Assembly (NCBI GenBank): GCA_944390435.1
Contig: CALXQC010000024.1
Coordinates: 1 to 35,242 of the forward strand
Length of the DNA: 35,242 nt
Direction: 5' to 3'
Source: an uncultured Clostridia bacterium
Lineage (GTDB): Bacteria; Bacillota; Dehalobacteriia; UBA4068
Below, in pieces: positions 11,742 through 29,783 of the stretch. A program made the translations under genes and the position numbers. How positions within the stretch are numbered: position 1 is the first letter of the stretch; each line of letters starts with the position of its first letter. Below the pieces are notes generated by a model, which was given only the letters and a program-made list of their open reading frames with translations, was not told the origin of the DNA and searched no databases.

Positions 11742-12013
11742 TTGCCGCGTGTGGCGGGGCGGTAGCGGCGCCCTGTAACCTTCAATCCGCTACAGGAGGG
11801 CCGATAAACCGTATTGAGGATATTTCCTGTGAGGCAGCCCCGGATAAGCGGTGTCGAAGGCCGGGTCCTGCGCGGCGGGCACCTGTGAACCTCGTCAGGT
11901 CCGGAAGGAAGCAGCGATAAGCAGATCTGTCCGGGCGCCGCGGGTTTGCCTGGCTGGAGCTGGCTGTTCGGAAAGCGCTCGGAGGTTAATATTCGAAGAC
12001 GGCTGCGCGGCAA
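11742..12013 (+). ncRNA. ffs: Signal recognition particle RNA, long Bacillus/Clostridium type
   Basis: This is the RNA scaffold of the signal recognition particle, which with Ffh targets nascent membrane proteins. The S-domain core is unmistakable: GTCAGGTCC-GGAA-GGAAGCAGC with the GNAR tetraloop and the asymmetric loop near 11895-11920. The 5' part (11755-11805) has the Alu-domain signature of long Firmicute SRP RNAs, with GGGCGGTAGC, CCCTGTAAC and AATCCGCT. The 5' end TTGCCGCGTG pairs with the 3' end GCTGCGCGGCAA, closing helix 5 and giving about 272 bases. End positions are estimated from this pairing. A promoter lies upstream and a terminator directly downstream. Confidence 0.93.
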
Positions 12014-12078: not shown

Positions 12079-12963
12079 TTATTGGCCGTCATAATCATCG
12101 AGGCCTTTCGGCACGCCGGTCTGGCAGGGGACATTGCCCTGGCAGAGACCGCAGCCGAAGGGGCCGTCGGCATTGAGGGCATTGCTGTCGATATAACTGC
12201 GCTTGAAATCCTGGATATATTCCCAGCAGAGATCCTTGTTGTGCCCCTCTTTGCCGATCGCTCCGGCCGGACAGGCCTTGATGCAGGAATCGCATTTGCC
12301 GGTGCGGTAGAAGAGGCACCAATAATGATAATCCTTGTAGGGGCGCGGGTCAGCCGGCAGCTTGGTCTCCAAGATCAGCGTGGTAAAACGGACCGCTTTG
12401 CCCAGGCGGGTGATCATGCCGTCGCAGAGGCCCCAGGTGCCCAGTCCGGCGATATAAGCGCTGTGGCGGTGCGACCAGTTGCAGGAGAGGCCGAATCGCT
12501 CCGACTGCCTCCAGCCCCATTGCGGGGACATATCCGGCGCTACGGCACGGATACCCGCCTTGGCCAGACGCTCAATGATATGGCCGCACAGCTCGCCTTC
12601 AACTTTTTCAAAGCAGTTGCGGGCATAAAGCCAGCGGAAATTAGGGGCTTTTTTCTGTCCTCGCTGCAATTCACGGGTGCGGTCATCACTGGCAAAGACG
12701 ATCGAGAGCACGGTCAGATCTTTATCTGCTGCTTGGGCGTCGGGGTAGAATTTTTTGTAGGCTTCAGCCGGCGTCCAGAAGAAATCGCCGATTTCTTTTT
12801 TGTAGTAGGGATAGAGCGGGTCGTCTCCCGCGGCAAAGCCGCAGTCGACCCGGGCCCAGATCTTCTCCTCCGGATGGCCGATCGCGCCGAAATTATTGCT
12901 CTTGGTCTCAGCGAAGGATTCTTGTACTATCTCCCGGATAGCAGTTTTGTCGATAATTGTCAT
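12079..12963 (-). CDS. Double [4Fe-4S] cluster protein, QueG/reductive-dehalogenase-like
   Basis: The 294-residue protein is related to the iron-sulfur part of epoxyqueuosine reductase and reductive dehalogenases. One cluster motif is C224-x2-C227-x3-C231-P in CDSCIKACPAGAI; C246 and the C271-x2-C274-x5-C280 set in CGLCQGNVPC complete the pair. An AGLGTWGLCDGMIT segment matches the conserved loop of this superfamily. At 294 residues it is shorter than true QueG and lacks its C-terminal repeats, so a queuosine role is doubtful. A GGAGGT ribosome binding site supports the ATG at 12963, and the upstream ATG at 12978 would overlap that site. The physiological reaction is unknown. Confidence 0.82.
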   Translation of the reverse strand: MTIIDKTAIREIVQESFAETKSNNFGAIGHPEEKIWARVDCGFAAGDDPLYPYYKKEIGDFFWTPAEAYKKFYPDAQAADKDLTVLSIVFASDDRTRELQRGQKKAPNFRWLYARNCFEKVEGELCGHIIERLAKAGIRAVAPDMSPQWGWRQSERFGLSCNWSHRHSAYIAGLGTWGLCDGMITRLGKAVRFTTLILETKLPADPRPYKDYHYWCLFYRTGKCDSCIKACPAGAIGKEGHNKDLCWEYIQDFKRSYIDSNALNADGPFGCGLCQGNVPCQTGVPKGLDDYDGQ

Positions 12964-13057
12964 GTTAGCCACCTCCAATAGGCTGATAGTTGTTGCTATT
13001 TAAGCAGCCCCGGCGTCAGACGCCAGGGCCGGATAAATTTATCGGTATTGACTGCGC

Positions 13058-14239
13058 TTAGCCGAGCGAGGCGAACAGCTCGCCCAGGCGTTGGCAAGCA
13101 GCGGTGATCTTCTCCACATTGCTGCTGGAGTAGTTGAGCCGCAGGCAGTCGAGGCCTTCATCCTCATTGATAAAGAAGGGCTGGCCGGGGACGAAAGCCA
13201 CCTTGTACTCGCTGACCGCGCGCTTGTTCAGCTCGATGGTATTGCAGCCGGGGATGCGCGCCCAGACGAATAAGCCGCCGTCGGGACGGGTATATTCGCA
13301 GTTAGCGGGGAAGTATTGCCGGATGCCGCGCTCCATGGCGGCGAAACGCTCGGCATAGATTTTGCCGACCTTTTGCAGATGCGCCGGCAGCAGGCCCTGG
13401 CGGAGAAACTCGGCGCAGATCGCCTGCGGCAGGGTGGCGGTATGGGTATCCGCGCCCTGCTTGACCAGCTCCAGTTTCTGCACCCATTCTTCCTTGGCGG
13501 TCACCGCGCCGACGCGCAGGCCGGGAGCGATGGTCTTGGAGAAGGAATTGAGCATGATGACATTGCCGCTCTCATCAAAGCTCTTGATCGGCGGCAGCGG
13601 CTCACCGCGGAAACGGACGTCGCCGTAGGGATCGTCCTCCAGCACCACCATATCATAGCGCGCCGCCAGCTCGGCGATGGCCTGACGCCGCGGCAGGCTG
13701 AGGCTGCGGCCGGTCGGATTCTGGAAGGTGGGGATGGTGTAGAGCAGCTTGGGATGATGCCGCTTGATCTTCTCTTCCAGATCCTCGATGATGATGCCCT
13801 CCTCGTCCATTGCTACGCCGACGATATTGGCGTCCATTTTCCGCAGCACATTGATGGTGTTGAGGAAGGTCGGGCTTTCGATCAGCACCGTGTCGCCCGG
13901 GTCGATAAAAACATCAAAGACCAGGTAAATCCCCTGTCCCGAGCCGGTCATTATGATGGTGTTCTCCACCTGCGCCTCCACGCCCTTGGGCCGCACCAAA
14001 TGCTCCAGATAGGCCTCGCGCAGCGGCAGATAGCCGCTGGTCAGCCCGTAGTCGAGCATCGCCACGCCGTGATCGCGCAGCAGGCAGTCGCTGATTTCGC
14101 GCACCTTATCCAGCGGATAGCCCTCCGCTGCCGGACTGCCGCCGCCCAGGGAGATGATCTCCGGGTCGGCCATCATCTTGAAGATCTCGCGGATCACGCT
14201 GCCCTTGACCCGGGACAAGCGCTGCGAATATTGCACCAT
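13058..14239 (-). CDS. PLP-dependent aminotransferase, class I fold (2-aminoadipate/aromatic type)
   Basis: The 393-residue enzyme is a fold-type I aminotransferase close to the LysN/MocR-catalytic-domain group that handles 2-aminoadipate, aromatic or branched-chain amino acids. Landmarks are ISLGGGSPAAEGYP near residue 30, the TGSGQGIYL segment near 97, TIPTFQNPTG with the cofactor-contacting asparagine, LEDDPYGDVRF, and SFSKTIAPGLRVG with the Schiff-base lysine near residue 230. No N-terminal GntR DNA-binding domain is present, so it is an enzyme and not a MocR regulator. GAGGAGG precedes the ATG and a TTGCAT/TATAAT promoter lies about 100 bases upstream. The true substrate is open. Confidence 0.92.
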   Translation of the reverse strand: MVQYSQRLSRVKGSVIREIFKMMADPEIISLGGGSPAAEGYPLDKVREISDCLLRDHGVAMLDYGLTSGYLPLREAYLEHLVRPKGVEAQVENTIIMTGSGQGIYLVFDVFIDPGDTVLIESPTFLNTINVLRKMDANIVGVAMDEEGIIIEDLEEKIKRHHPKLLYTIPTFQNPTGRSLSLPRRQAIAELAARYDMVVLEDDPYGDVRFRGEPLPPIKSFDESGNVIMLNSFSKTIAPGLRVGAVTAKEEWVQKLELVKQGADTHTATLPQAICAEFLRQGLLPAHLQKVGKIYAERFAAMERGIRQYFPANCEYTRPDGGLFVWARIPGCNTIELNKRAVSEYKVAFVPGQPFFINEDEGLDCLRLNYSSSNVEKITAACQRLGELFASLG

Positions 14240-17686: not shown

Positions 17687-18565
17687 ATGAAAAAATTGTT
17701 GCTCGTTTTACTTGCTGTTATGTTGTGCTTTGGTCTGGTGGCCTGCGCTACTACTGAGACCGAAGAGCCCGGCGAAGGCGAAGTTGCTACTCCGGAAAAC
17801 CCGGTGATCCGTCTGTCCACCACCACCTCGGTCAACGATTCCGAGCTGCTGCCTTACCTGCAGAAGGAATTCGAAGCTGATACCGGCTACACTCTGGAGA
17901 TCACCTCCGCCGGCACCGGCGCTGCGATCGAAAAAGGCCGCACCGGCGACGCCGACCTGCTGCTGGTTCATGATCAGGCTTCTGAAGAAAAGTTCATCGC
18001 CGATGGTTACGGCGTAGAACGCATTCCCTTCATGTACAACTACTTTGTCATCGTCGGTCCGGCCGATGATCCGGCTGCTGTAGCAGACGCTGCTGAAGCC
18101 AGCGATGCTTTCGCTGCTATCGCTGAAGCCCAGGCTCCTTTCATCTCCCGCGGTGATGACAGCGGCACCCATAAAGCCGAGCTGCGCATCTGGGAAGCTG
18201 CCGGCATCACTCCTGATCCGGCTGTTGACACCTGGTACATCTCCGCCGGCGCCGGCATGGGCGCAGTGCTCAACATGGCCTCTGAGCAGCAGGCTTATAC
18301 CCTGACCGACAAAGGCACCTATCTCTCTCATGAGCTGAGAGACACTCTCTCCATCCTCAAAGAGGAATCCGAAGAGATGAAGAACACCTACTCGATGATC
18401 GCTGTTTCTCCGGAAGCTTATCCGGACACCAATATCGAAGGCGCTAACGCTTTCATCGAATGGATGCTCTCCGACAAAGCCACTCAGCTGATCGCTGAAT
18501 ACGGCGTAGAAGAATACGGCCAGGCTCTGTTCTTCATTCTCGATGACGAGACTGCCGCTGAATAA
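17687..18565 (+). CDS. tupA: Tungstate ABC transporter substrate-binding lipoprotein
   Basis: TupA captures tungstate outside the cell for the TupBC importer. The 292-residue precursor has a lipoprotein signal with lipobox LVAC (C20) and a short acidic linker. Then comes the TupA hallmark STTTSVNDS (44-52), which supplies oxyanion-binding residues, and SRGDDSGTHKAEL (154-166), the second anion-binding segment. These motifs separate TupA from molybdate ModA and point to tungstate, though dual use is possible. AGGGGGG precedes the ATG. Codon choice (many GCT and GAA) differs from tupB and tupC and suggests high expression, as expected for a binding protein. Confidence 0.95.
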   Translation: MKKLLLVLLAVMLCFGLVACATTETEEPGEGEVATPENPVIRLSTTTSVNDSELLPYLQKEFEADTGYTLEITSAGTGAAIEKGRTGDADLLLVHDQASEEKFIADGYGVERIPFMYNYFVIVGPADDPAAVADAAEASDAFAAIAEAQAPFISRGDDSGTHKAELRIWEAAGITPDPAVDTWYISAGAGMGAVLNMASEQQAYTLTDKGTYLSHELRDTLSILKEESEEMKNTYSMIAVSPEAYPDTNIEGANAFIEWMLSDKATQLIAEYGVEEYGQALFFILDDETAAE

Positions 18566-18597
18566 TCATTTTTCTGCTCTGATAGGGGAATAGCAGG

Positions 18598-19284
18598 ATG
18601 GAGGTTCTTCAAGAAACAATCAATCTGCTGTTTGGGAGCAATCCCGAGCTGCGGCAGATCATCGGCGTCACCTTGCAGATGAGCGTGACCAGCACCCTGA
18701 TCTCCGTCGGCATCGGGATCCCCCTGGGTACGCTGATCGGAATGTACCAATTCCGCGGAAAAGGCGTTCTGATGCGTATCATCAACACACTAATGGGTCT
18801 GCCGCCAGTGGTGGCAGGCCTATTGGTGTTTTTTCTGCTCTCGCGCTCCGGCCCGTTGGGCGAGTACAAGCTGCTTTACAGCGTCACCGCGATGGTCATC
18901 GCTCAGGTGTTGCTGATCACGCCGATCGCGACCGGCCTGACCGCCTCGATGATCTCCCAGCGCTACCCGCTGCTGCGCGAGACCGCGCTGGGCATCGGGC
19001 TGCCGCGGCGCAAGCAGCTGCTCTATACGCTCTATGAGTGCCGCAGCTCGCTGTTTTCGGTGCTGTTCACCGGCTTCGGCCGCGCTATCTCCGAGGTCGG
19101 CGCGGCGCAGATCGTCGGCGGCAATGTGCAGTATAAGACCAGGACCATGACTACCGCCATTGTCCTGGAAACCAATAAGGGCAATTTCGATATGGCTATT
19201 GCCCTGGGTATCGTGCTGCTGGTGATCGCCTTTGTCATCATGTGCCTCGGCCAGTATTTGAAGGATAAGAGTGAACGACCATGA
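18598..19284 (+). CDS. tupB: Tungstate ABC transporter permease
   Basis: The 228-residue membrane protein is the permease of the tungstate importer. It has about five hydrophobic helices and the ABC-permease coupling motif region RETALGIGLPRRKQLLYTL near residues 130-148. The segment FGRAISEVGAAQIVGGN is typical of TupB/ModB-like permeases. An AGGGGA ribosome binding site lies 8 bases before the ATG. It follows tupA by 32 bases, with no hairpin between, and overlaps tupC by four bases (ATGA), so the two are translationally coupled. Confidence 0.94.
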   Translation: MEVLQETINLLFGSNPELRQIIGVTLQMSVTSTLISVGIGIPLGTLIGMYQFRGKGVLMRIINTLMGLPPVVAGLLVFFLLSRSGPLGEYKLLYSVTAMVIAQVLLITPIATGLTASMISQRYPLLRETALGIGLPRRKQLLYTLYECRSSLFSVLFTGFGRAISEVGAAQIVGGNVQYKTRTMTTAIVLETNKGNFDMAIALGIVLLVIAFVIMCLGQYLKDKSERP

Positions 19285-19961
19285 TTAAAATCAGTCAGCT
19301 GCGGAAAAGCTATAACGGCCGCTGTGTGCTGAATATCGAGGATTTCGTCTTTGAGCCGGGGGGCAAATATGCCCTGATCGGCGCTAACGGCTCCGGCAAG
19401 AGCACGCTGCTGAAGATTTTGGCCGGCACGCTGGCGGCGGACAGCGGCAGCATCGACTGCCCGAGCGGGCTGCGCGAGCGGCTCGGCTATATGCCGCAGA
19501 AACCCTATATTTATGATTTTTCGGTGCTGAAAAATATCCTCATCGCCTTCACCCATAGTCAGAGCGATTCCGCTGCTGCGCTCCGCGCCCTGAGGCGGGT
19601 GGGAATGGAGGATTTCGCCGCGGCGCGCGGCTCCCGCCTCTCCGGCGGCGAATCGCAGCGGGTGGCCTTTGCCCGGATGCTGGTTGAGCCGCATCCGCTG
19701 CTGCTGCTCGATGAGCCGACTTCGGCGATGGATCTCAATGCCAGCGATCAGGTGGAGCAGGAGCTGCTGGATTATTGCTCCGAGCAGACCACGACGCTGA
19801 TCTTCGCCACTCATTCCCTGGCGCAGGCGCAGCGGGTCGCCGATACGCTGCTGCTGATGGATCACGGCCTGTTGGCGGAATACGGCTCCGCCGCGGAGCT
19901 GATTCATCATCCGCAGACCCAGGAGGCGCGCGATTTTCTCCGCAACTGGAAAGTGGACTAA
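19281..19961 (+). CDS. tupC: Tungstate ABC transporter ATP-binding protein
   Basis: This 226-residue ATPase drives the tungstate importer. All ABC motifs are present: Walker A GANGSGKST (34-42), a Q-loop glutamine in YMPQKP, signature LSGGESQRVAFAR (120-132), Walker B LLLLDEPTSAMD (140-151) and the switch histidine in FATHSL. It lacks a C-terminal TOBE/MOP regulatory domain, as in other TupC proteins. The start overlaps the tupB stop. Confidence 0.94.
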   Translation: MIKISQLRKSYNGRCVLNIEDFVFEPGGKYALIGANGSGKSTLLKILAGTLAADSGSIDCPSGLRERLGYMPQKPYIYDFSVLKNILIAFTHSQSDSAAALRALRRVGMEDFAAARGSRLSGGESQRVAFARMLVEPHPLLLLDEPTSAMDLNASDQVEQELLDYCSEQTTTLIFATHSLAQAQRVADTLLLMDHGLLAEYGSAAELIHHPQTQEARDFLRNWKVD

Positions 19962-20059
19962 AACAGCGCCAAAATTTCCGGCAGCTGATGATGCCGCCGA
20001 ATAGCGCCTAAATATAGTTTAATAGCTGAAAAACGGCTGATTTATGATAGGTATAAAAT

Positions 20060-20086
20060 AAAACACGCTTTAAGCGTGTTTTTTGG
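20060..20086. terminator. Bidirectional terminator between tupC and the FAD oxidoreductase genes
   Basis: AAAACACGCTT (20060-20070) and its complement (20072-20082) form a tight hairpin followed by Ts on both strands. It closes tupABC from the left and the convergent minus-strand operon from the right. The rest of 19962-20175 shows no gene. Confidence 0.85.
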
Positions 20087-20175: not shown

Positions 20176-21066
20176 CTAAAGCAGCGCGCGGGCCGCTTGT
20201 TCTCCCTGCAGGGTGACGGTATCGACGATTTTATGCACATGCTCGCAGTTGCCGGCCAGCTGCAGCCATGCCGGATAAGCTCCGCCGTCGAGCAGCGGCG
20301 CTACCAGCTCGCGTTCCGGCCGCAGTCCGGCAGCCAGCACCAGGGTCGAGCAGGCGATCCGTTCTTCGGCGCCGCTGTCGAGATGGCGCAGCGTTACCGC
20401 CTCAATGCGCCGGCGGCCGTGGATCTCGCAGACCGTAGCGGAAGTAAGGCAGGGGATGCGGCACTGCTCGCAGCATTGGCGCTGATGCTCCGGCAGTCCG
20501 GAGAGCTGCGGCCGCTGCTCGACGATGGCCAGCACCTGCTTGCCCAGCAGATGGAACTGCCGCGCCATAATCAGGCCGATATCGCCGCTGCCCAGTACGA
20601 TGATCCGGTCGCCGATATCGTCGCCGTAGAGATTGAGCATTTGCTGCGCCTGCCCGGCGGTGAAAACTCCGGCCGGACGCGTGCCGGCGATCGGCAGCGC
20701 GCCGAGAGGTATCTCCCGGCAGCCGCTGGCCAGAATCAGCCGCCGAAAGGCCACTTGCTGCAACCCCTGCTCATTGCTGAGCAGGGCAATGCGCTCCCGG
20801 CTGACTGCCAGCGCCGTGGTATTGAGCAGCAGCTGCACCGGAGCTGCCGCTAGCTGCCCGGCGAAGCGCCGCGCGTATTCCGCACCGGTCAGATCCTGCT
20901 GAAAATAGCGGAGGCCGAAACCATGATGCAGGCATTGCGGCAGCACGCCTCCGAGATAGGGCGCGCGTTCTACCAGCAGCGTCCGCCGTCCGCTGCGGCT
21001 GGCGGCTAGGGCTGCGGCCATGCCCGCCGCGCCGCCGCCGATAATCAACAGCTCGCTGTTAAGCAT
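20176..21066 (-). CDS. NAD(P)/FAD-dependent oxidoreductase (pyridine nucleotide-disulfide type, GlpB/HcnB-like)
   Basis: The 296-residue flavoprotein starts with an FAD-binding Rossmann motif, LLIIGGGAAGMAAALAASRS (residues 5-24). It has the ATG-like LILASGCREIPLG and a second dinucleotide motif IIVLGSGDIGLIMARQF for NAD(P)H. Related proteins pair with an FAD/[2Fe-2S] dehydrogenase, passing electrons between substrate and NAD or quinone. AAGGAGGT precedes the ATG at 21066, and the start overlaps the stop of the gene before it by eight bases, so the two are translationally coupled. Three-gene versions of this system in Firmicutes often add a DUF1667 protein; none follows here. The substrate is unknown. 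Confidence 0.87.
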   Translation of the reverse strand: MLNSELLIIGGGAAGMAAALAASRSGRRTLLVERAPYLGGVLPQCLHHGFGLRYFQQDLTGAEYARRFAGQLAAAPVQLLLNTTALAVSRERIALLSNEQGLQQVAFRRLILASGCREIPLGALPIAGTRPAGVFTAGQAQQMLNLYGDDIGDRIIVLGSGDIGLIMARQFHLLGKQVLAIVEQRPQLSGLPEHQRQCCEQCRIPCLTSATVCEIHGRRRIEAVTLRHLDSGAEERIACSTLVLAAGLRPERELVAPLLDGGAYPAWLQLAGNCEHVHKIVDTVTLQGEQAARALL

Positions 21067-22519
21067 CGCTACCTCCTTGCAGCACCTCAGAGCCCGGCTC
21101 ATCCCAGGCGACTTCAGTGAGCGGGATTCCTTTTTCCCGGGCGATCAGCTCGACGATGCGGCGCAGGCAAAAACCGCCCTGGCAGCGTCCGGCTGTTGCG
21201 CCGACGCGCCGCTTGACGCCGTTGACCGTGGCGGCGCCGCGGCGGATCGCCGCGATAATTTCCCCCTCGGAGACGCCGCGGCACTGGCAGACGATGCGGC
21301 CGAAAGCCGGGTCACGGCGGATCAACTCCTGCCGCTGTTCCATCGGCAGTGCGGCCAGGCGGGGAATCGCCGCGCGATGCGGATCAAAACAGGAATTCCG
21401 CGGCGGATCGCCCAGGAAACGGCAGATTTTCTCTGCCGCCTGCTGCGCCAGCCCGGCAGCGCAGGTCATGCCCGGGGTTTTGATGCCGATGAAGCTGACC
21501 CAGTCCGGCGGGTCAAACTGTGGCGAGAGTTCAAAGCCGCTGACCTGGCCGGAGACGCTGCCGGGAAAGCTCAGCAGCGGCCGCAGCGAGGCGAAGCTGC
21601 GGATCACCTGGCGGCGCGGCAGCGCCGGCACCACCTGCGGCCACCAATAATCAAGCCAGTCCAAACCGGAGCGGCTGGTGGCGAAATCCTCTTTATCGCC
21701 GCTGCCCGGTTCTTCGGAGGGGCCGAGCAGCAGATTGCCCTCATGGGTCGGCACCAGGGTCAGACCCTTGCCCCCGTCCTCCGGCTGATGGAAAACGATG
21801 CGGCGGATCAGGCCGCGGCACTGCTCGTCCAGCAGATAATAATCAGCGCGCTGCGGACAGATCCGTACCGAAAAAGGCATGATCTGCGCCTGGATGGCGT
21901 CAGCGAACAGCCCGGCGGCATTGACTACGGTGCGGCAGCGGAATTGCTCCTCCGCGGTGCTGATCAGCCAGCCGCCGTCCTGCTTTCTGATCGAGTGCAC
22001 CTCGGCGTTCATCAGCGCAGTGCAGCCGTTGGCCAGAGCGTTCTCATAGGCGGCAATGGTCAGATGATAGGGATTGACCGTGCCGGTAGTCGGCGCCAGC
22101 AGCGCCAACCGGATGCCCGGCGCCAGCTGCGGCTCCAGCTCCGCCGCCTCCTCTCCGGAGATCAGGCGCAGGCCGGGAACGCCGTTTTCCTTTCCGTTGC
22201 GGTATTTATGCCGCAATGCCGCCTCGCCGCGCTCGCCCCAGCAGACCATCAGCGAACCGCAGCGGTCGAAGGGTACGTCCAGCTCCTGCGCGAGCTGCGC
22301 GAATCCGGCATTGCCCCGGCAGCAGAGCTGCATCTTGCGCGTGCCGGGCCGGGTATCGTATCCGGAGTAGACAATGGCGGTATTAGCCTTGGAAATGCCG
22401 GTGCAGACATCGCTGCACCGTTCCAGCAGCGCCACGCTCAGCTGATAGCGGCACAGCTCGCGGGCGGTAAAACAGCCCAGCATACCCCCGCCGATCACTA
22501 CACAGTCGAAATCCCTCAT
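21059..22519 (-). CDS. FAD-dependent dehydrogenase with C-terminal BFD-like [2Fe-2S] domain (GlpA/LhgO-like)
   Basis: The 486-residue protein is a DAO-type FAD enzyme related to glycerol-3-phosphate dehydrogenase GlpA and L-2-hydroxyglutarate oxidase. The FAD motif VVIGGGMLG is at residues 7-15, and GIKTPGMTCAAGLA near 362-375 is the C-terminal FAD-contacting block. The last 80 residues form a BFD-like [2Fe-2S] domain with CQC and RCQGGFC cysteines. A purine-rich GGGAAAGG region precedes the ATG. It lies 33 bases after the MoeA-PBP gene in the same direction, so it is probably in the molybdopterin operon. It could act on an unidentified 2-hydroxy or amino acid, or serve as redox partner for the AOR enzyme nearby. 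Confidence 0.85.
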   Translation of the reverse strand: MRDFDCVVIGGGMLGCFTARELCRYQLSVALLERCSDVCTGISKANTAIVYSGYDTRPGTRKMQLCCRGNAGFAQLAQELDVPFDRCGSLMVCWGERGEAALRHKYRNGKENGVPGLRLISGEEAAELEPQLAPGIRLALLAPTTGTVNPYHLTIAAYENALANGCTALMNAEVHSIRKQDGGWLISTAEEQFRCRTVVNAAGLFADAIQAQIMPFSVRICPQRADYYLLDEQCRGLIRRIVFHQPEDGGKGLTLVPTHEGNLLLGPSEEPGSGDKEDFATSRSGLDWLDYWWPQVVPALPRRQVIRSFASLRPLLSFPGSVSGQVSGFELSPQFDPPDWVSFIGIKTPGMTCAAGLAQQAAEKICRFLGDPPRNSCFDPHRAAIPRLAALPMEQRQELIRRDPAFGRIVCQCRGVSEGEIIAAIRRGAATVNGVKRRVGATAGRCQGGFCLRRIVELIAREKGIPLTEVAWDEPGSEVLQGGSDA

Positions 22520-22552: not shown

Positions 22553-24463
22553 CTAGAGATGCAGCCGCACCCGTCCCGGCTCTCCGACCTGATAGCCGCC
22601 CAGCTCCTCCAGCTTGCGGCGGAAGGCCTCGCTGGAGAGTATCTCCAGCAGCTGCTGCAGCAGCGGACTCTCCCAGGCCTGATCCGGCACCAGCAAATCA
22701 TACTGCTCGATGCAGACCGGGATAAAAGCGAGCCCATACATCTGCGCCGCCGACCAGATGCCCATGCCGGCGTCAGCCGAGCCGCTGGCGATCTGCGCCG
22801 CCACGGCGGTATGGGTGAATTCTTCTCTCCCGTAGCCGTAAATAGCAGCGGAATCGATGCCCTGCTGACGGCATAGATAATCGGCGAGGATCCGCGTGCC
22901 GGAGCCTTTCTGCCGGTTGACATAGCGCAAGCCCTCGCGGGTAATATCGGCGAATTCCTTGATGCCCAGCGGGTTGCCGGGCGCAACCATCAGCCCCTGG
23001 GTGCGGCCGACACATTCCAGCAGCCGCACGCCGCCCTGGGGGAAATAGCGTTTGAGGAAAGAGACATTATAGACGCCGTCGTTCTCATCCAGCAGATGAA
23101 TACCGGCCAGATGCGCTTCATTGCGCCGCACCGCCATAATGCCGCCCATTGAGCCGACATGCGAAGAGCTCATATAGCAGTCAGGGTAGCGGATATGCAG
23201 CATATTGGCCAGCTCGTCGAGCATCGGGTCATGGCTGCCGATCGCCACCAGCGTCCGCCGCAGCTCATGCTCCGGCCGCAGCAGCTGCACCTTTACCTGC
23301 TCGCCCGCTTCATAGCCTTCCTGGCTTTGGGGTATTTCGAGGATGCCGTCGGCCTTCATGAAAGAGGAGATGACGCCGCTGCCGCGGTTGAGCGGCGAGG
23401 CGATCAGCTTCTCGCCCACATAGCCCAGGCGCACCCGGACGAATTCCTGATATTTGAGACCCGAGACTACGGGACTGCTGAGCACAGCTTCTGCACTCTG
23501 CTCCATGCTGAGCTTGGCTTTAGTCCAATATTCGATCAGCGGTTTCAGCAGCTGCTCGATAACGATGATCCCGGAGACCGGATATCCCGGCACACCCAGC
23601 ACCGGCTTGCTGCCGCAGACTCCGAGAATCGCCGGCTTGCCCGGCTTGATGGCAATGCCGTGATAGAGCACCTCGCCGATCTCGGCGATCACCTGACAGC
23701 TGTAATCCTCGCGTCCGGCGGAAGATCCGGCGTTTAAGATCACCATATCACATTCGGCCAGCGCATCGAACACTGCTTGCTTGATCAGCCCGAACTGATC
23801 TTTGACGATCGGATAAGTCTTGGTCAGCGCGCCCCATTCCCGCAGCATACCGGAGAAAATCGAGGAATTGAATTCCAAAATATCGCCCTCGCGCGGATCA
23901 GCGGTGGGAGCTATGATCTCGTCGCCGGTAGGGATAATGCCGACCAGCGGCTTTTTGAGCACCGCTACTTCCATCACGCCGCCGGCGATCATCGCGCCTA
24001 CCGCGGCCGGGGTGATCCTGACATGGGCGGGCATAATCATCTCCCCGGCGCAGATATCTTCGCCGATCTGGCGGATATGCTGCCAGGGTGCGGCTGCGGA
24101 GTAGAGGCGCACGCCGCCGTCCCCGTCTTCAATTACGTCTTCGATCATCACCACCGCGTCGCAGCCCTCAGGAATCGGATCGCCGGTATCGACGACCACG
24201 AATTGCTCCGGACTCAGCCGCACCGGCGTGGTTTCCGTAGCGCCGAAGGTCAGCCGCGCATCGAGAGCGATGCCGTCCATGGCGCTGGCATGATAATGCG
24301 GCGCGCAGATATGGGCATAGACCGCCTCGGCGGTGATGCGGCCGCAGGCTTCGGCTATCGGCACCCGCTCCAGCGGCGGCTCCATGCCCTGAGCGATCAG
24401 TTTTTCCAGATATTCCTGCTGCGCCTGAGCCAGCGGGGTATTAGTCAGATATTGAAAGGCCAT
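22553..24463 (-). CDS. MoeA-PBP fusion: molybdopterin molybdenum/tungsten transferase with C-terminal binding-protein-like domain
   Basis: The 636-residue protein joins two modules. Residues 1-400 or so are MoeA, which inserts the metal into adenylylated pterin: HYHASAMDGIAL near the N-terminus, VVDTGDPIPEGCDAVVMIED, TGDEI, NAGSSAGREDY and the KPGKPAILG and GVPGYPVS motifs. Residues 410-636 resemble a periplasmic-binding-protein fold of the PBP-like type (PF12727), with RQKGSGTRILAD similar to the anion-binding loop of TupA/ModA. There is no signal peptide, so it is cytosolic. The start at 24463 follows GAGGAGGAG. Upstream frames are open but out of reach of that site. A metal-selective role next to a second MoeA is likely but inferred. 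Confidence 0.93.
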   Translation of the reverse strand: MAFQYLTNTPLAQAQQEYLEKLIAQGMEPPLERVPIAEACGRITAEAVYAHICAPHYHASAMDGIALDARLTFGATETTPVRLSPEQFVVVDTGDPIPEGCDAVVMIEDVIEDGDGGVRLYSAAAPWQHIRQIGEDICAGEMIMPAHVRITPAAVGAMIAGGVMEVAVLKKPLVGIIPTGDEIIAPTADPREGDILEFNSSIFSGMLREWGALTKTYPIVKDQFGLIKQAVFDALAECDMVILNAGSSAGREDYSCQVIAEIGEVLYHGIAIKPGKPAILGVCGSKPVLGVPGYPVSGIIVIEQLLKPLIEYWTKAKLSMEQSAEAVLSSPVVSGLKYQEFVRVRLGYVGEKLIASPLNRGSGVISSFMKADGILEIPQSQEGYEAGEQVKVQLLRPEHELRRTLVAIGSHDPMLDELANMLHIRYPDCYMSSSHVGSMGGIMAVRRNEAHLAGIHLLDENDGVYNVSFLKRYFPQGGVRLLECVGRTQGLMVAPGNPLGIKEFADITREGLRYVNRQKGSGTRILADYLCRQQGIDSAAIYGYGREEFTHTAVAAQIASGSADAGMGIWSAAQMYGLAFIPVCIEQYDLLVPDQAWESPLLQQLLEILSSEAFRRKLEELGGYQVGEPGRVRLHL

Positions 24464-24506: not shown

Positions 24507-25724
24507 CTATTCCGCGCTGTACAGGGTGACTGCGACCAGCGCTCCGGCGGCCAGGCCCTCGGTATCGCGGTCGATGCAGATATAACCGTCGGTGGCGGCC
24601 AGATTGCTGATCTGGCTTGATTTGGCGCGCAGCGGGCAGGCCCACCATTCGCCGCCGCGCTGCTCCAGGGAAACGCTGAGATACTGGGTGCGCCCGTCAT
24701 TGGCGCTGAGCTTCTCGCTGAGCCGCGCCGGCAGCTGATAGCTGACCGTCCGCCGTCCCTGGAGACGGTAGAGCAGCGGCCGCATGAACAGATGGCTGAT
24801 GAAGAATGCTGCTGCCGGATGTCCGGGCAGACCGACCACCGGCTTATTCCCCACCTTGCCGATGATTGTCGGCTTGCCCGGCTTGATGGCGATGCCGTGC
24901 AGCAACAGCTCGCCCAGCTCAGAGATGACCTGGCAGGTGGCGTCCTTCATCCCCACCGAACTGCCGCCGGAAAGCAGCACCAGCTCGTTTTCCGCCAGCG
25001 CCTGCTCCACCTGGCGCCGCAGCAGCCGGCGGTCGTCGCGGACAATGCCGTAACAGGTCACCTCTGCGCCGCAGCGCTGCATCAGCGCGCTGACCACTGT
25101 GGAATTAATATCGCGCACCTGTCCCGGCCCGGGGGTTTCCTCCACCGGCACCAGCTCGTCGCCGGTGGAGATGACGCCGACGCGCACCGCCGCGCGTACC
25201 GGCACCTGCGCCCAGCCCAGCGCGGCCAGCGCGCCCAGATCCTGCGCCGCCAGTTTTTTGCCGGCAGGCAGCACCAGCTGCCCGGGCTGGACATCATCGC
25301 CGCGGAACACGATATTTTTGCCCGGGGCGGCTGGCTTGCTCAGGCCGATAGTGCCGTCGCCGTAATCCTCGCTGTATTCGATCATCACCATCGCGTCGGC
25401 TCCGGCTGGAATAGCGCCGCCGGTCGGCACATAGAGGCAGTGTCCAGGCTGCAGCGGCGGCGCGCTCTCGCCCATCGCCACCTCGCCCTGCAGGGTGAAG
25501 ATCGCCGGTATCGAGGCGGAACAGCCGAAGGTGTCGGCCGCGCGCACCGCATAGCCGTCGACAGTGGAGCGGTCGAAATCCGGCACATATTCGGCGGCGC
25601 GGATCTCCTCGGCCAGCACCCGCCCCAGCGCCGCTGCGAGCGGCGCCTGCTCGCAGGCTGCCAGACAGCTGAACTGCTCCTCGATCAGCGCTAAAGTTTC
25701 TTCAGGGGTTTTGACTGTCAGCAT
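24507..25724 (-). CDS. moeA: Molybdopterin molybdenumtransferase MoeA
   Basis: MoeA releases AMP from adenylylated molybdopterin and inserts molybdate or tungstate. The 405 residues contain the family blocks DFDRSTVDGYAVRA near residue 50, VPTGGAIPAGADAMVMIEY, STGDEL, RDINSTVV, LSGGSSVGMKD, KPGKPTIIG and GLPGHPAA. AAAGGAGAG supports ATG 25724 over an earlier in-frame ATG at 25766. It is the first gene after LysR on this strand and is followed 43 bases later by the MoeA-PBP gene. Two MoeA proteins in one operon suggests that each handles a different metal or partner. Confidence 0.95.
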   Translation of the reverse strand: MLTVKTPEETLALIEEQFSCLAACEQAPLAAALGRVLAEEIRAAEYVPDFDRSTVDGYAVRAADTFGCSASIPAIFTLQGEVAMGESAPPLQPGHCLYVPTGGAIPAGADAMVMIEYSEDYGDGTIGLSKPAAPGKNIVFRGDDVQPGQLVLPAGKKLAAQDLGALAALGWAQVPVRAAVRVGVISTGDELVPVEETPGPGQVRDINSTVVSALMQRCGAEVTCYGIVRDDRRLLRRQVEQALAENELVLLSGGSSVGMKDATCQVISELGELLLHGIAIKPGKPTIIGKVGNKPVVGLPGHPAAAFFISHLFMRPLLYRLQGRRTVSYQLPARLSEKLSANDGRTQYLSVSLEQRGGEWWACPLRAKSSQISNLAATDGYICIDRDTEGLAAGALVAVTLYSAE

Positions 25725-25881: not shown

Positions 25882-26790
25882 TTATTCGCCTTTTTTCACC
25901 TCGCTGCGCTGCGCCTCCTCCAGACCTAGATCAGCGATCACGTGTTCTTTGAACTGGCGTCCGGCCTCGCTGAGATGCTTGTCGCGTTTGAAGCAGAGCA
26001 TCATCTCGCGGGCGAAGCGGGGATCGTCGATCGGCAGCAGGCGGATCTGCTGATTGAGCTGATAGGCGTCGGTGCAGTCCTCGAGCACGAAGCCGGCCAC
26101 CTGGTTATTGGCGATCATCTGGCAGTGATATTCCGGGCTGTCGGTGAAGAACTGGGTGTTGAGCGGCACATTGAGCGCTACGCAGAGGCGGTAGGCATGC
26201 TCGACATAATTGCCGCTGGCGATGAAGACGAAGGGATCGCGCCCCAGGTCTTCCAGGCCGACCCGCTCTTTGGCCGCCAGGGCGCTGGCGCTGTTGACCG
26301 CCAGAAAATAGCGCTTGCGGCCCAGGTGATAGCCCTGAAATTTTTCATAGCGGATATCCTCGGGGTAAATCAGCATATCATAATCATTGATATCCAGCTT
26401 GTCCAGCTGCTCGATATTGCTGGTGACGCTCAGCTCCGTCTCATGATGGCTGATAATAAAGCGCTGCATACAGTCCATGATTTGCTTATTGGCGCCGCAT
26501 AAGCCCACCTTGAGCTTATTGCCAAAGCCGTTAGCCAGCAGATTCATATCGTCGACGGCCAGTTCCAGCTCGCGCAGCACCAGGGAGCTGAACTGCCAAA
26601 AGCGCCGCCCCTGCTCATTGAGGACGATCTTTTTGCCGCTGCGCTGAAACAGCGTCATGCCCAGCTCCGCCTCGAGCTTGGCGATGCTTTTCGATAATGA
26701 GGACTGCGATAGATGCAGCAGGTCAGCAGCCTTGCTGATATTTTCCAGCTGCGCCACAGAGACGAAATAGCGTAATTGAAAGATGTTCAT
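25882..26790 (-). CDS. LysR-type transcriptional regulator
   Basis: The 302-residue regulator starts with a LysR helix-turn-helix: MNIFQLRYFVSVAQLENISK, then AADLLHLSQSSLSKSIAKLE, and an FQRSGKKIVLNEQG wing. The rest is the two-lobed effector-binding domain. GAGGAGG supports the ATG at 26790. LysR proteins typically control a divergent target and themselves; here the divergent gene encodes the AOR enzyme, and the moeA operon lies downstream. The effector is unknown and may be an aldehyde, acid or cofactor-related molecule. Confidence 0.93.
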   Translation of the reverse strand: MNIFQLRYFVSVAQLENISKAADLLHLSQSSLSKSIAKLEAELGMTLFQRSGKKIVLNEQGRRFWQFSSLVLRELELAVDDMNLLANGFGNKLKVGLCGANKQIMDCMQRFIISHHETELSVTSNIEQLDKLDINDYDMLIYPEDIRYEKFQGYHLGRKRYFLAVNSASALAAKERVGLEDLGRDPFVFIASGNYVEHAYRLCVALNVPLNTQFFTDSPEYHCQMIANNQVAGFVLEDCTDAYQLNQQIRLLPIDDPRFAREMMLCFKRDKHLSEAGRQFKEHVIADLGLEEAQRSEVKKGE

Positions 26791-26833
26791 CGGCGTCCTC
26801 CTCGCTGCCCTTTCCGGCGGTTGGTTATTACTC

Positions 26834-26843
26834 TTTGGAATAT
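26834..26843 (+). repeat. TTTGGAATAT, copy 1 of a possible LysR site
   Basis: The 10-mer TTTGGAATAT lies in the LysR 5' untranslated region. A second copy in inverted orientation lies at 26975-26984, inside the LysR promoter spacer. Two copies in one control region point to a regulator site, though chance cannot be excluded in AT-rich DNA. Confidence 0.4.
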
Positions 26844-26961
26844 CAAAAAGCGTATTTGCCGCGGCTTTTTCCCGCCTGCCGCTTGGTCTAAGCATAAAAA
26901 AAGCTTTAATATGAAGCATTGCTGTGGACAAGCGCGCTGCGGCGAGCTTTAGCTAAATTTT

Positions 26962-27126: not shown

Positions 27127-28854
27127 ATGAAAGTACTGCGTATCAATACCCGTACCGCAGAAAATCATTACGAACCGTTCAAAGAAGAATGGAAGGTCTA
27201 TGGCCAAAGAGGCCTGATCGACAAATTTATCGAGGCTGAGCTGGATCCGAAATGCGATCCGCTGGGTCCGGACAATAAGCTGTTCATCGTCACCGGCGTG
27301 TTCGCCGGCACCGGCGTGCCCAGCTCCGGCCGTATTTCCGGCGGCGCTAAGAGCCCGCTGACCGGCACGATCAAGGAATCCACCTCCGGCGGCATGATCG
27401 GCCCCTACATGACCTCTCAGGAGATCAAGGGCATCATCTTGGAAGATCAGCCCGCGGCCGACGCTCCCTGGCAGGTGATTAAAATCGATCCCGACGGCAA
27501 GGTCGATTTCCTGCCCGCCGACGAGTATATGGGCAAAAACACCTATGAAGTCTCGCATATGATCCAGCACACCTACGGCGACAAAGCCGGCGCTTTGGTG
27601 CTGGGCCGTGCCGGCGAAATGGGCTATAAAGTCGCCAGCATCATGGCGATCGAGTTCAATACCGGCCATCCCTGCCGTGCGATGGGCCGCGGCGGTCTGG
27701 GCGCTGTCCTGGGCTCGAAGAAGATCAAAGCCATCATCATGGAAAAACCCAACGGCAAATATGCTCCGCCTTATGTCGACAAGGCGAAATTCGACGCCGC
27801 TAAAAAAGGCATCGCCACTGTTACCAAGGAAAACCCCAAGTGCCAGGGCTTTACCACTAAAGGCACCGCCGGCTTCCTGACCGGTACCAACCAGACCACC
27901 CGCGCGATCCCGATCCAGAACTTCCGCGGCGGCGCGGTCACTCCGGAACAGCGCGAGCATTTCGGCCCCGAAGCCTGGGAAGCTAAGAATAAGGTCAGCG
28001 GCGGCCACGGCAGCGTTCCCTGCCATCCCGGCTGCGTAATGCGCTGCTCCAATATCTACAATGATCCGCAGGGCAATCATATCACCTCCGGCCTGGAGTA
28101 TGAGACTGTTTCCCTGTTCTGCCCCAACTGCCTGATCTGGGATTTCGACGTAGCGGCTCGTCTCGACCGCCTCTGCGATGAAATGGGCATCGACACCATC
28201 GAAGCCGGCAACCTGATCGCCATCTGCATGGACGGCGGCGTGATCGACTGGGGCGACGGCGACGGCGCGATCAAGCTGCTGGAAGGCATGAACGAAGGCA
28301 CCGAGCTCGGCCGCATCATGGGCCAGGGCACTGTTCCGCTGGGCAAGCATCTCGGCGTGACCAGAGTTCCGCAGTGCAAGGGCCAGTCCTTCGCCGCTTA
28401 TGATCCGCGTACCCAGCCGGGAGGCGGCATCGCCTATGCGCTGTCTCCGCAGGGCGCCGACCATTCCGTCGGCCAGGTGGTTGCTCCGGATAAGAACAAC
28501 CGCGAGATTCTCGCCATGGCCGGCAATCGTATGCTCGACCAGTGCATCGTCGATAATTTCGGCTGCACGCTGATGAACGCCGCTTATTTCGGCCAGCCGC
28601 GCTTTGTGCCGGATCTCTATGAAGGCTTGTTCGGCGGCGAATGGGATAAAGAAAAACTTTACGAAATCGGTAGGGAAATGTTCCGCATCGAGCGTAAATT
28701 TAATAAGGAAGCTGGTTTCGGCCCCGAGGACGATATGCTCCCTGATTTCTGCGTCAACGAAGCGAACCCCGCCAATGACAATAAGTTCGACCTCACTGTC
28801 GAAGAATTAGAGGAAGTTTTCAGACCTATGGGAGCCTGCTACGACCAGCTGTAA
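27127..28854 (+). CDS. Tungsten-dependent aldehyde:ferredoxin oxidoreductase family enzyme
   Basis: The 575-residue cytosolic enzyme belongs to the AOR family, which uses a tungsten bis-pterin and a [4Fe-4S] cluster to oxidise aldehydes or reduce acids with ferredoxin. The N-terminal domain ends in GRAGEMGYKVASIMA and GRGGLGAVLGSKKIKAI (187-203), which contact the pterin. Cluster cysteines are C299, C303 and C307 in CHPGCVMRC, with C480 (DNFGCTLM) as the likely fourth; the spacing is C-x3-C-x3-C where classical AOR has C-x2-C-x3-C. QGADHSVG near 442-449 is the second pterin-binding motif. It heads an operon with MoaD-like and ThiF-like genes. Substrate is unassigned. Codon use suggests strong expression. 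Confidence 0.93.
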   Translation: MKVLRINTRTAENHYEPFKEEWKVYGQRGLIDKFIEAELDPKCDPLGPDNKLFIVTGVFAGTGVPSSGRISGGAKSPLTGTIKESTSGGMIGPYMTSQEIKGIILEDQPAADAPWQVIKIDPDGKVDFLPADEYMGKNTYEVSHMIQHTYGDKAGALVLGRAGEMGYKVASIMAIEFNTGHPCRAMGRGGLGAVLGSKKIKAIIMEKPNGKYAPPYVDKAKFDAAKKGIATVTKENPKCQGFTTKGTAGFLTGTNQTTRAIPIQNFRGGAVTPEQREHFGPEAWEAKNKVSGGHGSVPCHPGCVMRCSNIYNDPQGNHITSGLEYETVSLFCPNCLIWDFDVAARLDRLCDEMGIDTIEAGNLIAICMDGGVIDWGDGDGAIKLLEGMNEGTELGRIMGQGTVPLGKHLGVTRVPQCKGQSFAAYDPRTQPGGGIAYALSPQGADHSVGQVVAPDKNNREILAMAGNRMLDQCIVDNFGCTLMNAAYFGQPRFVPDLYEGLFGGEWDKEKLYEIGREMFRIERKFNKEAGFGPEDDMLPDFCVNEANPANDNKFDLTVEELEEVFRPMGACYDQL

Positions 28855-28876: not shown

Positions 28877-29095
28877 ATGATTATTGTCAACGATCACCCG
28901 ATGGATTGGCATCCCGGAATGACGCTGGCCGACGCGATCCGTGCTTACGGCAGTAAGTATGATTCGCTGATCTACGTTAATCCGGATCTGATGACGATCA
29001 TCGGCAACCGTAGCTATAGCGATCAGGAAGTGGAGCATGTGGTGCTTGACGACGGCACCCGCATTATCCTGATGTATGAATTCTGGGGAGGCTAG
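28877..29095 (+). CDS. MoaD/ThiS-like sulfur-carrier protein
   Basis: This 72-residue protein has a beta-grasp, ubiquitin-like pattern and ends in the diagnostic glycine pair (MYEFWGG), the site that is adenylylated and thiocarboxylated. MoaD donates sulfur to the pterin dithiolene; ThiS does so for thiazole. The position between an AOR enzyme and a ThiF/MoeB-like gene favours a pterin role. GGGAGGG precedes the ATG, 22 bases after the AOR stop. The next gene starts one base after its stop, so the two are tightly coupled. Confidence 0.88.
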   Translation: MIIVNDHPMDWHPGMTLADAIRAYGSKYDSLIYVNPDLMTIIGNRSYSDQEVEHVVLDDGTRIILMYEFWGG

Positions 29096-29096
29096 G

Positions 29097-29783
29097 ATGA
29101 GCGAGGAACGTTACCTGCGCAATATGACGATGCTCTCCCCGGAAGAAAATGAGCGGCTGCACAGCTTTTGCGTGGCGGTAGTCGGCTGCGGCGGCCTCGG
29201 CGGCTATGTGATAGAGATGCTGGGGCGGCTGGGTATCGGCCGGATCACCGCTATCGACGGCGACTGCTTCGAGCCCACTAATCTTAACCGTCAGCTATTG
29301 GCAGATCAGACGACGCTGGGCGCTAATAAGGCGCTGGCCGCTAAGGCGCGGATGCAGCTGGTTAATCCGCTGATCGAGGTGGCAGCAGTCAGCGAGCATC
29401 TTACCGCGGAGAACGGCCGGCAGCTGCTGGCCGGGCAGGATCTGGTCATCGATGCGCTCGATGCCCTGGAGCCGCGCCTGCTGCTGCAGGAGCTGGCCCG
29501 CGAGCTGGAGATTCCGTTGATACACGGCGCGGTGGCCGGCTGGTATGGCCGGATCACCACCATTTTCCCCGGCGACGACGGCATCAGCCGTCTTTACCGG
29601 CAGCGGCCGCAGGCGGCCGGGCGTCAGCAGACGCTGGGCACGCCGTCCTTTACTCCGGCGCTGGTGGCCGCGGTACAGGTCAGCGAGGCGCTGAAGGTGC
29701 TGCTGGGCCAGGGCGAACCGCTGCGGCATAAGCTGCTCTATATCGATTTGCATAGCAATCTGTGGCAGACTATCGACTATTAG
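29097..29783 (+). CDS. ThiF/MoeB/HesA-like adenylyltransferase
   Basis: The 228-residue E1-like enzyme should adenylylate the C-terminal glycine of the adjacent sulfur carrier. The nucleotide-binding motif VVGCGGLGGYVIEMLGRLG lies near residues 23-41, with DGDCFEPTNLNRQ following as the ATP-binding arginine block and DALDALEPR in the middle. It lacks the zinc-binding CxxC pairs and any cysteine beyond the first third, so it cannot form the thioester used by some E1 proteins, and has no rhodanese domain. GGAGG just before the ATG supports the start at 29097; an earlier in-frame ATG at 29076 lies inside the carrier gene. Confidence 0.9.
   Translation: MSEERYLRNMTMLSPEENERLHSFCVAVVGCGGLGGYVIEMLGRLGIGRITAIDGDCFEPTNLNRQLLADQTTLGANKALAAKARMQLVNPLIEVAAVSEHLTAENGRQLLAGQDLVIDALDALEPRLLLQELARELEIPLIHGAVAGWYGRITTIFPGDDGISRLYRQRPQAAGRQQTLGTPSFTPALVAAVQVSEALKVLLGQGEPLRHKLLYIDLHSNLWQTIDY

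Follow-up and report, generated by a model that had tools for sequence, protein, structure and literature searches.

The window analysed here is the whole 35,242-nucleotide stretch of contig CALXQC010000024.1, from an uncultured Clostridia bacterium. On its minus strand, two flavoprotein genes together occupy positions 20176-22519: A, the DAO/BFD flavoprotein gene, and B, the gene of a flavoprotein binding flavin adenine dinucleotide (FAD) and nicotinamide adenine dinucleotide, with or without phosphate (NAD(P)). Loci are given below as L numbers and genomes as G numbers. The pair belongs to a subclade that is tied to tungsten aldehyde oxidoreductase (AOR) and to tungsten/molybdopterin genes. 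The locus contains the following features:

21059-22519, minus strand: A, DAO-fold flavoprotein with C-terminal BFD [2Fe-2S] domain, 486 residues (PF01266 and PF04324)
20176-21066, minus strand: B, FAD/NAD(P) flavoprotein, short form, 296 residues (PF07992)
22553-24463, minus strand: MoeA-PBP fusion, mechanical open reading frame to 24700 (PRK14498, 742 bits; MoeA domains and PBP_like PF12727)
24507-25724, minus strand: MoeA, mechanical open reading frame to 25766 (PF03453/PF00994/PF03454)
25882-26931, minus strand: LysR regulator (PF00126, PF03466)
27127-28854, plus strand: AOR, tungsten aldehyde oxidoreductase large subunit (WorL), 575 residues (PF02730, AFOR_N; PF01314, AFOR_C)
28877-29095, plus strand: MoaD/ThiS-like sulfur carrier (WorX-like), 72 residues, ending in WGG (by reading; no Pfam match)
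29076-29783, plus strand: ThiF/MoeB-like adenylyltransferase (PF00899, 2e-53)
17687-19961, plus strand: TupABC tungstate transporter, convergent with A-B (nearest NCBIfam families)
20059-20085, no strand assigned: terminator-like inverted repeat between tupC and B, AAACACGCTTTAAGCGTGTTTTTT (by reading)

The original prediction had placed the pair at 20176-22519, with an 8-base overlap and 33 bases behind MoeA-PBP, and both open reading frames (ORFs), their Pfam domains and these distances were confirmed. For B, the mechanical ORF begins at 21102, which would give 308 residues and a 44-base overlap with A. Since the ATG at 21066 is preceded by a good Shine-Dalgarno sequence, AAGGAGG (AAGGAGGTAGCG-ATG), and several homologues begin near the same point, we take B to be 296 residues long and to overlap A by 8 bases (ATGCTTAA). 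The 33 bases run from the stop of MoeA-PBP (22553) to the start of A (22519); the true start of MoeA-PBP is placed at about 24463 because its homologues begin near residue 79-80 of the mechanical ORF. The AOR gene, divergent from the A-B operon, is the sole PF01314 match in the genome data of the window's organism. TupA (205.7 bits, cut-off 400) and TupB (180.8 bits, cut-off 320) score below their equivalog cut-offs and ABC_perm1 above its own. The GC content of A and B, overall and at third codon positions (GC3), is within the range of neighbouring genes, and their arrangement is not a matter of chance, since close homologues of both ORFs share the same order elsewhere.

The best 80 loci of a larger number matched in a scan of named genomes comprise 75 others and five with a short B, namely L085, L086, L087, L091 and L117 (open frames of 295-334 residues, one cut at its start). 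None of these five has DUF1667, and four carry AOR and/or MoeA-PBP in the stretch; the order MoeA, MoeA-PBP, A, B is repeated in L085, L086 and L091, with AOR and tup genes also present in L085 and L091. A profile of the subclade found matches at E ≤ 1e-150 in 37/400 genomes of the family to which the L086 genome belongs, one of them L086's own, and the 36 further loci chosen in this way are thus members by choice, AOR linkage being no selection criterion. Together with the five short-B loci (L087 and L117 assigned by B alone) and G014 (L033), they make 42 subclade loci besides the window. AOR is found in 27, MoeA-PBP in 23, either of them in 36 and TupA/B in 14, and in 21 of the 42 A lies directly behind MoeA-PBP (-121 to 30 bases, by mechanical ORF ends). 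A LysR gene is present in several as well (e.g., L227, L228, L233, L236, L238, L252 and L256). Linkage in 36/42 subclade loci versus 0/75 other loci gives a Fisher p of 3e-24, uncorrected for relatedness and, because the rows are related, too small. The searches for AOR and MoeA-PBP used BLAST, starting from three AORs and the MoeA-PBP of the window, so that remote ones may escape, and, the contigs being short, absences refer to the stretch examined only. At genome level, AOR was found in 6/6 subclade genomes and the window's own, in 2/2 sister genomes and in 6/39 long-B genomes (one weak, 3e-13), the latter a hand-picked part of the 75. A literature search, mostly outside subscription papers, returned no description of an A-B pair in tungsten clusters.

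Phylogeny supports the subclade as a unit in quick tree searches, with support from the Shimodaira-Hasegawa-like approximate likelihood-ratio test (SH-aLRT) only and no bootstrap. A single branch holds all 41 subclade A rows (SH-aLRT 100). In an A tree of 91 rows, five rows with a short B lie on one side of a branch (100), with G007 and G011, of the window's family, adjacent (99); the seven subclade rows of the B tree group at 99, on long branches. The subclade is represented by the window and G014 only in the class sample (43 genomes), where G007 and G011 are its sister, and by 1/398 genomes of the phylum sample at E ≤ 1e-155, which is the window's own. As an observation on the sister lineage, in G007 and G011 the sister-type A is preceded by a protein of ~300 residues that carries a DDTDN motif and matches no Pfam family (L034 2119-3024; L055 3701-4600), and in G011 this A also stands alongside a MoaA-like gene (by eye), a MOSC gene and a periplasmic binding protein.

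Within the window's family, only 4/14 AOR-bearing genomes have any such A, two of these of the subclade. Two of the ten without it, G001 and G002, have contigs that break inside MoeA-PBP, with the remainder not found in G002, and we dropped both as evidence of absence. A long MoeA-PBP match (E ≤ 1e-170) is present in 18 other genomes, and A in only two of them, G011 and G014; G009 and G017 have 5 and 4 AOR matches and no pair. Among the 19 stretches with MoeA-PBP in pair-less genomes, no replacement flavoprotein was seen behind it wherever the next gene was readable (it was not in L181, L182, L185 and L186), and in several moaA-, moaC-, MOSC- or mog-like genes come next (by eye).

In the wider family, the pair is not tied to AOR. 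Of 61 genomes sampled (the window's plus 60 relatives), 14 have a strong A (E < 1e-70) and nine have DUF1667, all within those 14. The strong-A genomes without a DUF1667 match are G000, G007, G011, G014 and G040, the pair of G040 lying at a contig edge. AOR occurs in 28/61 genomes, but in only 2/10 pair-bearing genomes outside the window's family, and in four class relatives (G036, G038, G040 and G042) the pair is present without any AOR match. The other 75 named loci, which include L151 with its B cut by the contig end, carry DUF1667 in 70 cases and AOR or MoeA-PBP in none. Four of the five without DUF1667 end 0-167 bases past B, and the fifth, L154, lacks it despite 3.2 kilobases (kb) of further sequence. 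The link to AOR suspected in the original prediction holds for the subclade (AOR and/or MoeA-PBP in 36/42 loci) and not for the wider family (0/75), for which we rejected the notion that the pair tracks AOR. The prediction had also named two observations that together would speak against it: the pair does occur without AOR or MoeA-PBP, both in the 75 loci and in the four class relatives, whereas tight clustering with true GlpAB was not found.

Protein A has a DAO domain (PF01266, 4e-60, residues 5-363) followed by a Fer2_BFD domain (PF04324, 2e-13, residues 409-460). Its model has a mean predicted local distance difference test score (pLDDT) of 93 and shares the fold of M. pneumoniae GlpO (MpGlpO; 4x9m, the best PDB match, Z 44.8, root-mean-square deviation 2.2, 375 aligned) and of Drosophila L2HGDH (8w75 and kin, Z about 41); these matches stop before the BFD domain. 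The scores of A are far below the NCBIfam equivalog cut-offs of GlpO-II (NF033460, 179/460 bits), GlpA (TIGR03377, 108/553) and L-2-hydroxyglutarate oxidase (126/299). Lys258 and Arg320 of GlpO are kept in A; these, together with Ser348, we take to be positions with functional roles in MpGlpO. Across the subclade, Arg313 is kept in 41/41 rows and Lys251 in 40/41, and the four BFD cysteines are retained in all readable rows bar one at a contig edge. The catalytic histidine (His51 in MpGlpO, His92 in L2HGDH) is Tyr51 in A and Tyr in 39/39 readable subclade rows; outside the subclade this column holds His in 83/84 rows and Cys in one. Position 348 is Thr in 40/40 rows, versus Ser in 83/85 elsewhere; position 347 is Lys in 40/40, versus mostly Glu or Gln (57/85; Lys 7); and position 353 is Cys in 40/40, versus Ala in 40, Ser in 38 and Cys in 4. 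The pocket is thus conserved yet altered, which favours a real and different substrate.

His51 of MpGlpO is the proposed base that takes the C2-hydroxyl hydrogen, with His92 as its equivalent in Drosophila L2HGDH, where the H92Y variant retained FAD and lost activity (PMC10726252). Because H92Y is inactive, Tyr at this position argues against L2HGDH-type hydroxy-acid chemistry. C-N oxidation by A is chemically open, since glycine oxidases, which oxidise C-N bonds, are also without His at that column (Gly in the two aligned). Plain GlpAB was rejected on the missed equivalog cut-offs, the separate tree placement and the Tyr, and the subclade is likewise set apart from GlpAB by its DUF1667 loss and its AOR/MoeA-PBP linkage. 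A second, remote DAO-type match was observed at about 12796-13473 of G000:C6 (open frame 392 residues, E 1.1e-5), which we would guess to be perhaps of sarcosine-oxidase or hydroxyproline-dehydrogenase type.

Protein B has a Pyr_redox_2 domain (PF07992, 6e-26), the family motifs GGVLPQCLHHGFG (pattern GG[IV]LxQCxHxGFG) and LGSGDIG, and an AlphaFold model (mean pLDDT 96) of thioredoxin-reductase-class fold. The A-B-DUF1667 triads of Clostridia and others have the same domains, A-then-B order and motifs, and are sister lineages in the A tree; the window's subclade differs from them by Tyr for His, a B of about 295 instead of about 415 residues, no DUF1667 and the tungsten/AOR neighbourhood. The window's B is without the C-terminal ~100 residues of the DUF1667-linked B family (~415 residues). 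That the third gene, DUF1667, is absent had been noted before and is borne out: no match was found anywhere in the window's own genome (83% complete), and reading all frames of the 215 bases that follow B by eye showed no remnant. A purpose-built hidden Markov model places DUF1667 fused to the end of B in L240, L241, L244 and L261 (Pfam confirms L240 and L241; L261 is not listed at E ≤ 1e-6), and these four with L260 are the first-splitting group in a rooted drawing of the A tree (support 88). The B of L237, L246, L247 and G014 (L033) retains only a short CxxCP..C...C tail, of which the window's B has none. To judge from the sequences, DUF1667 appears to have been fused to B in this subclade, then eroded and then lost, and the series from fused domain to bare cysteine tail may be useful for learning what DUF1667 does. 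Viral contigs scanned with B yielded no relative.

Heterotetrameric sarcosine oxidase (1vrq) and the L-proline dehydrogenase of P. horikoshii (1y56) also combine DAO and Pyr_redox_2 subunits, and the folds of A and B match theirs; in 1y56 the BFD-like stretch is on chain A, the B-like subunit, whereas in the window pair it is on A. AorC/WorN of the Aromatoleum AOR, a Class III tungsten oxidoreductase (WOR), is likewise an FAD/NAD protein encoded with AOR, but it works with the polyferredoxin AorA and bears a helical domain at its C terminus; the available parts of the sources (PMC10413684, PMC6365974, PMC13328260) mention no DAO partner. As an FAD/NAD protein (PF07992) in an AOR cluster, B falls under the domain rule for WorN, IPR023753, given in PMC13328260. 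The polyferredoxin WorS beside WorL that marks Class III is not found at the window's AOR. IPR023753 presumably covers PF07992. AorC was not among the 60 best of 193 PDB matches to B, which, with no direct comparison of B and AorC made, excludes nothing.

Five AOR groups, delimited at 45% identity and counting the window's own, accompany the pair. With WorL alone and WorX and ThiF nearby, the window's AOR has the composition described for Class I WOR (PMC13328260). Its neighbourhood showed neither a polyferredoxin nor a NuoF gene, the rest of the genome not having been searched for polyferredoxin. The AOR operons of L228, L233, L236, L252 and L256 also encode polyferredoxin, NuoE and NuoF (with Pfam matches for L228, L233 and L256), which resemble the WorS, WorC and WorB that belong to bifurcating Class IV enzymes (PMC13328260). 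Since these five loci still hold A-B, the pair is not simply the missing NAD subunit of AOR. The InterPro numbers of WorB and WorC we take to denote NuoF- and NuoE-like proteins. Three further observations concern AOR itself. Polyferredoxin is fused to iron-containing alcohol dehydrogenase and encoded with AOR and MoaD in L229 (7075-8739) and L235 (6012-7679). In L117 (3727-7633), a glycyl-radical enzyme (1003 residues) and, by reading, its probable activating enzyme stand beside AOR-MoaD-polyferredoxin genes that face the short B. The window's AOR (27127-28854) is 97.6% identical to that of the congeneric G002 (L053 1696-3423), with ThiF at 74%, MoeA at 82% and LysR at 87%, which reads as either unusually strong conservation or recent transfer.

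We tentatively favour the possibility, which we hold at somewhat under an even chance, that A-B is a two-flavin dehydrogenase coupled to NAD(P) and dedicated to tungsten/AOR gene islands. Its substrate would be small and anionic, and it would probably serve AOR on the substrate side, a role that the original prediction had offered as its second option. The pair is a subfamily derived from GlpA/GlpO-like A and DUF1667-linked B and recruited into these islands, its chemistry presumably changed by the replacement of the catalytic His by Tyr, of Ser348 by Thr and of position 347 by Lys, and by the loss of DUF1667 and the C-terminal part of B. A and B may form one complex, in which the FAD of A would take hydride from, or give it to, a small, presumably anionic substrate in a GlpO-like pocket, and electrons would pass from this FAD through the BFD [2Fe-2S] cluster of A to the FAD of B and on to NAD(P). 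Our guess at a role is the making or removal of the aldehyde or of its precursor, possibly by C-N and not C-OH oxidation. An iron-containing alcohol dehydrogenase gene or ferredoxin-alcohol dehydrogenase fusion near AOR in five loci (L229, L235, L241, L243 and L249) counts for a substrate-side role, and a pathway enzyme fits better than an obligatory cofactor step because the pair is optional (4/14 AOR-bearing genomes of the window's family). Several observations weigh on the other side. Six of the 42 loci (L234, L257, L260, L262, L087 and L033) have neither AOR nor MoeA-PBP in the stretch; TupA is present in L262 (3.9 kb), a molybdopterin-binding protein of hydroxylase type in L087 and other MoeA-like genes in L234. 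In L229, L243, L253 and L260, on short contigs, no B lies next to A in the stretch examined, so that B may be dispensable; AORs of five groups accompany the pair, so that feeding a single aldehyde is not an easy fit; and its tightest neighbour, MoeA-PBP (21/42), is a cofactor gene, as is the MoaA that comes after B in four loci.

These same neighbours speak for a role in tungsten-cofactor or AOR maturation, in which A-B would catalyse a redox reaction by which the tungsten-pterin is made, loaded or repaired, e.g., on the pterin or its phosphate-bearing precursor. We regard this as rather doubtful. A follows MoeA-PBP at -121 to 30 bases in the 21 loci and at 33 bases in the window, MoaA comes directly after B in L231, L233, L238 and L258 and a MoaC-looking ORF in L239 (by eye), some cofactor operons read MoeA-PBP, A-B, MoaA in order, and all five AOR groups, with several subunit make-ups, have the pair; but A is in only two of the 18 further genomes where MoeA-PBP gives a long match, 13/42 subclade loci have AOR and no MoeA-PBP in the stretch, and an obligatory step is not easily reconciled with the 5 and 4 AOR matches of the pair-less G009 and G017. 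The fuller form, an undescribed dedicated flavo-[2Fe-2S]/NAD redox module of GlpO/L2HGDH-like origin that would act on tungstopterin or its precursor and serve several AOR groups of gut-type Clostridia, we hold to be doubtful. Electron-transfer subunits in the manner of AorC/WorN, with the BFD cluster of A and the FAD of B carrying AOR electrons to NAD, would suit the FAD/NAD fold of B, the lack of polyferredoxin or NuoF genes seen beside the window's AOR and the loci in which A-B adjoins AOR (divergent in L239, L242 and L247; tail to tail in L237 and L244). This role, which the original prediction had put forward, is weakened by the five loci whose AORs have their own polyferredoxin, NuoE and NuoF and yet keep A-B; moreover, an electron carrier has no need of the conserved pocket positions and leaves the DAO domain unexplained, and we consider it unlikely. 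That A-B is an ordinary glycerol-3-phosphate or 2-hydroxy-acid dehydrogenase, beside the molybdenum/tungsten operon by chance, is very improbable: the best structural matches are to GlpO and to L2HGDH or a protein like it, and the remainder of the family retains His, but the catalytic His is replaced in every readable subclade row, the equivalog cut-offs are missed by far and synteny preserved over many genomes makes chance adjacency unlikely.

The swapped catalytic residue and the lost partner protein point, at the level of sequence, to an unknown reaction tied to tungsten enzymes. Only 5/92 tungsten oxidoreductase clades have a known physiological role (PMC13328260), and a partner enzyme fixed in AOR islands would be a direct handle on the role of these AORs in gut bacteria, or else on a missing tungsten-cofactor step. 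Annotation calls for caution here: domain rules could label B as WorN and A as glycerol-3-phosphate dehydrogenase, and our evidence is against the latter and weakens the former.

Elsewhere in the window, the only Rfam match at gathering scores is a bacterial large signal recognition particle RNA (11745-12010, plus strand, 183 bits). A MocR/PdxR-like aminotransferase domain is encoded at 13058-14239 (minus strand); its best NCBIfam match begins at residue 92 of PdxR, the helix-turn-helix part being apparently absent.

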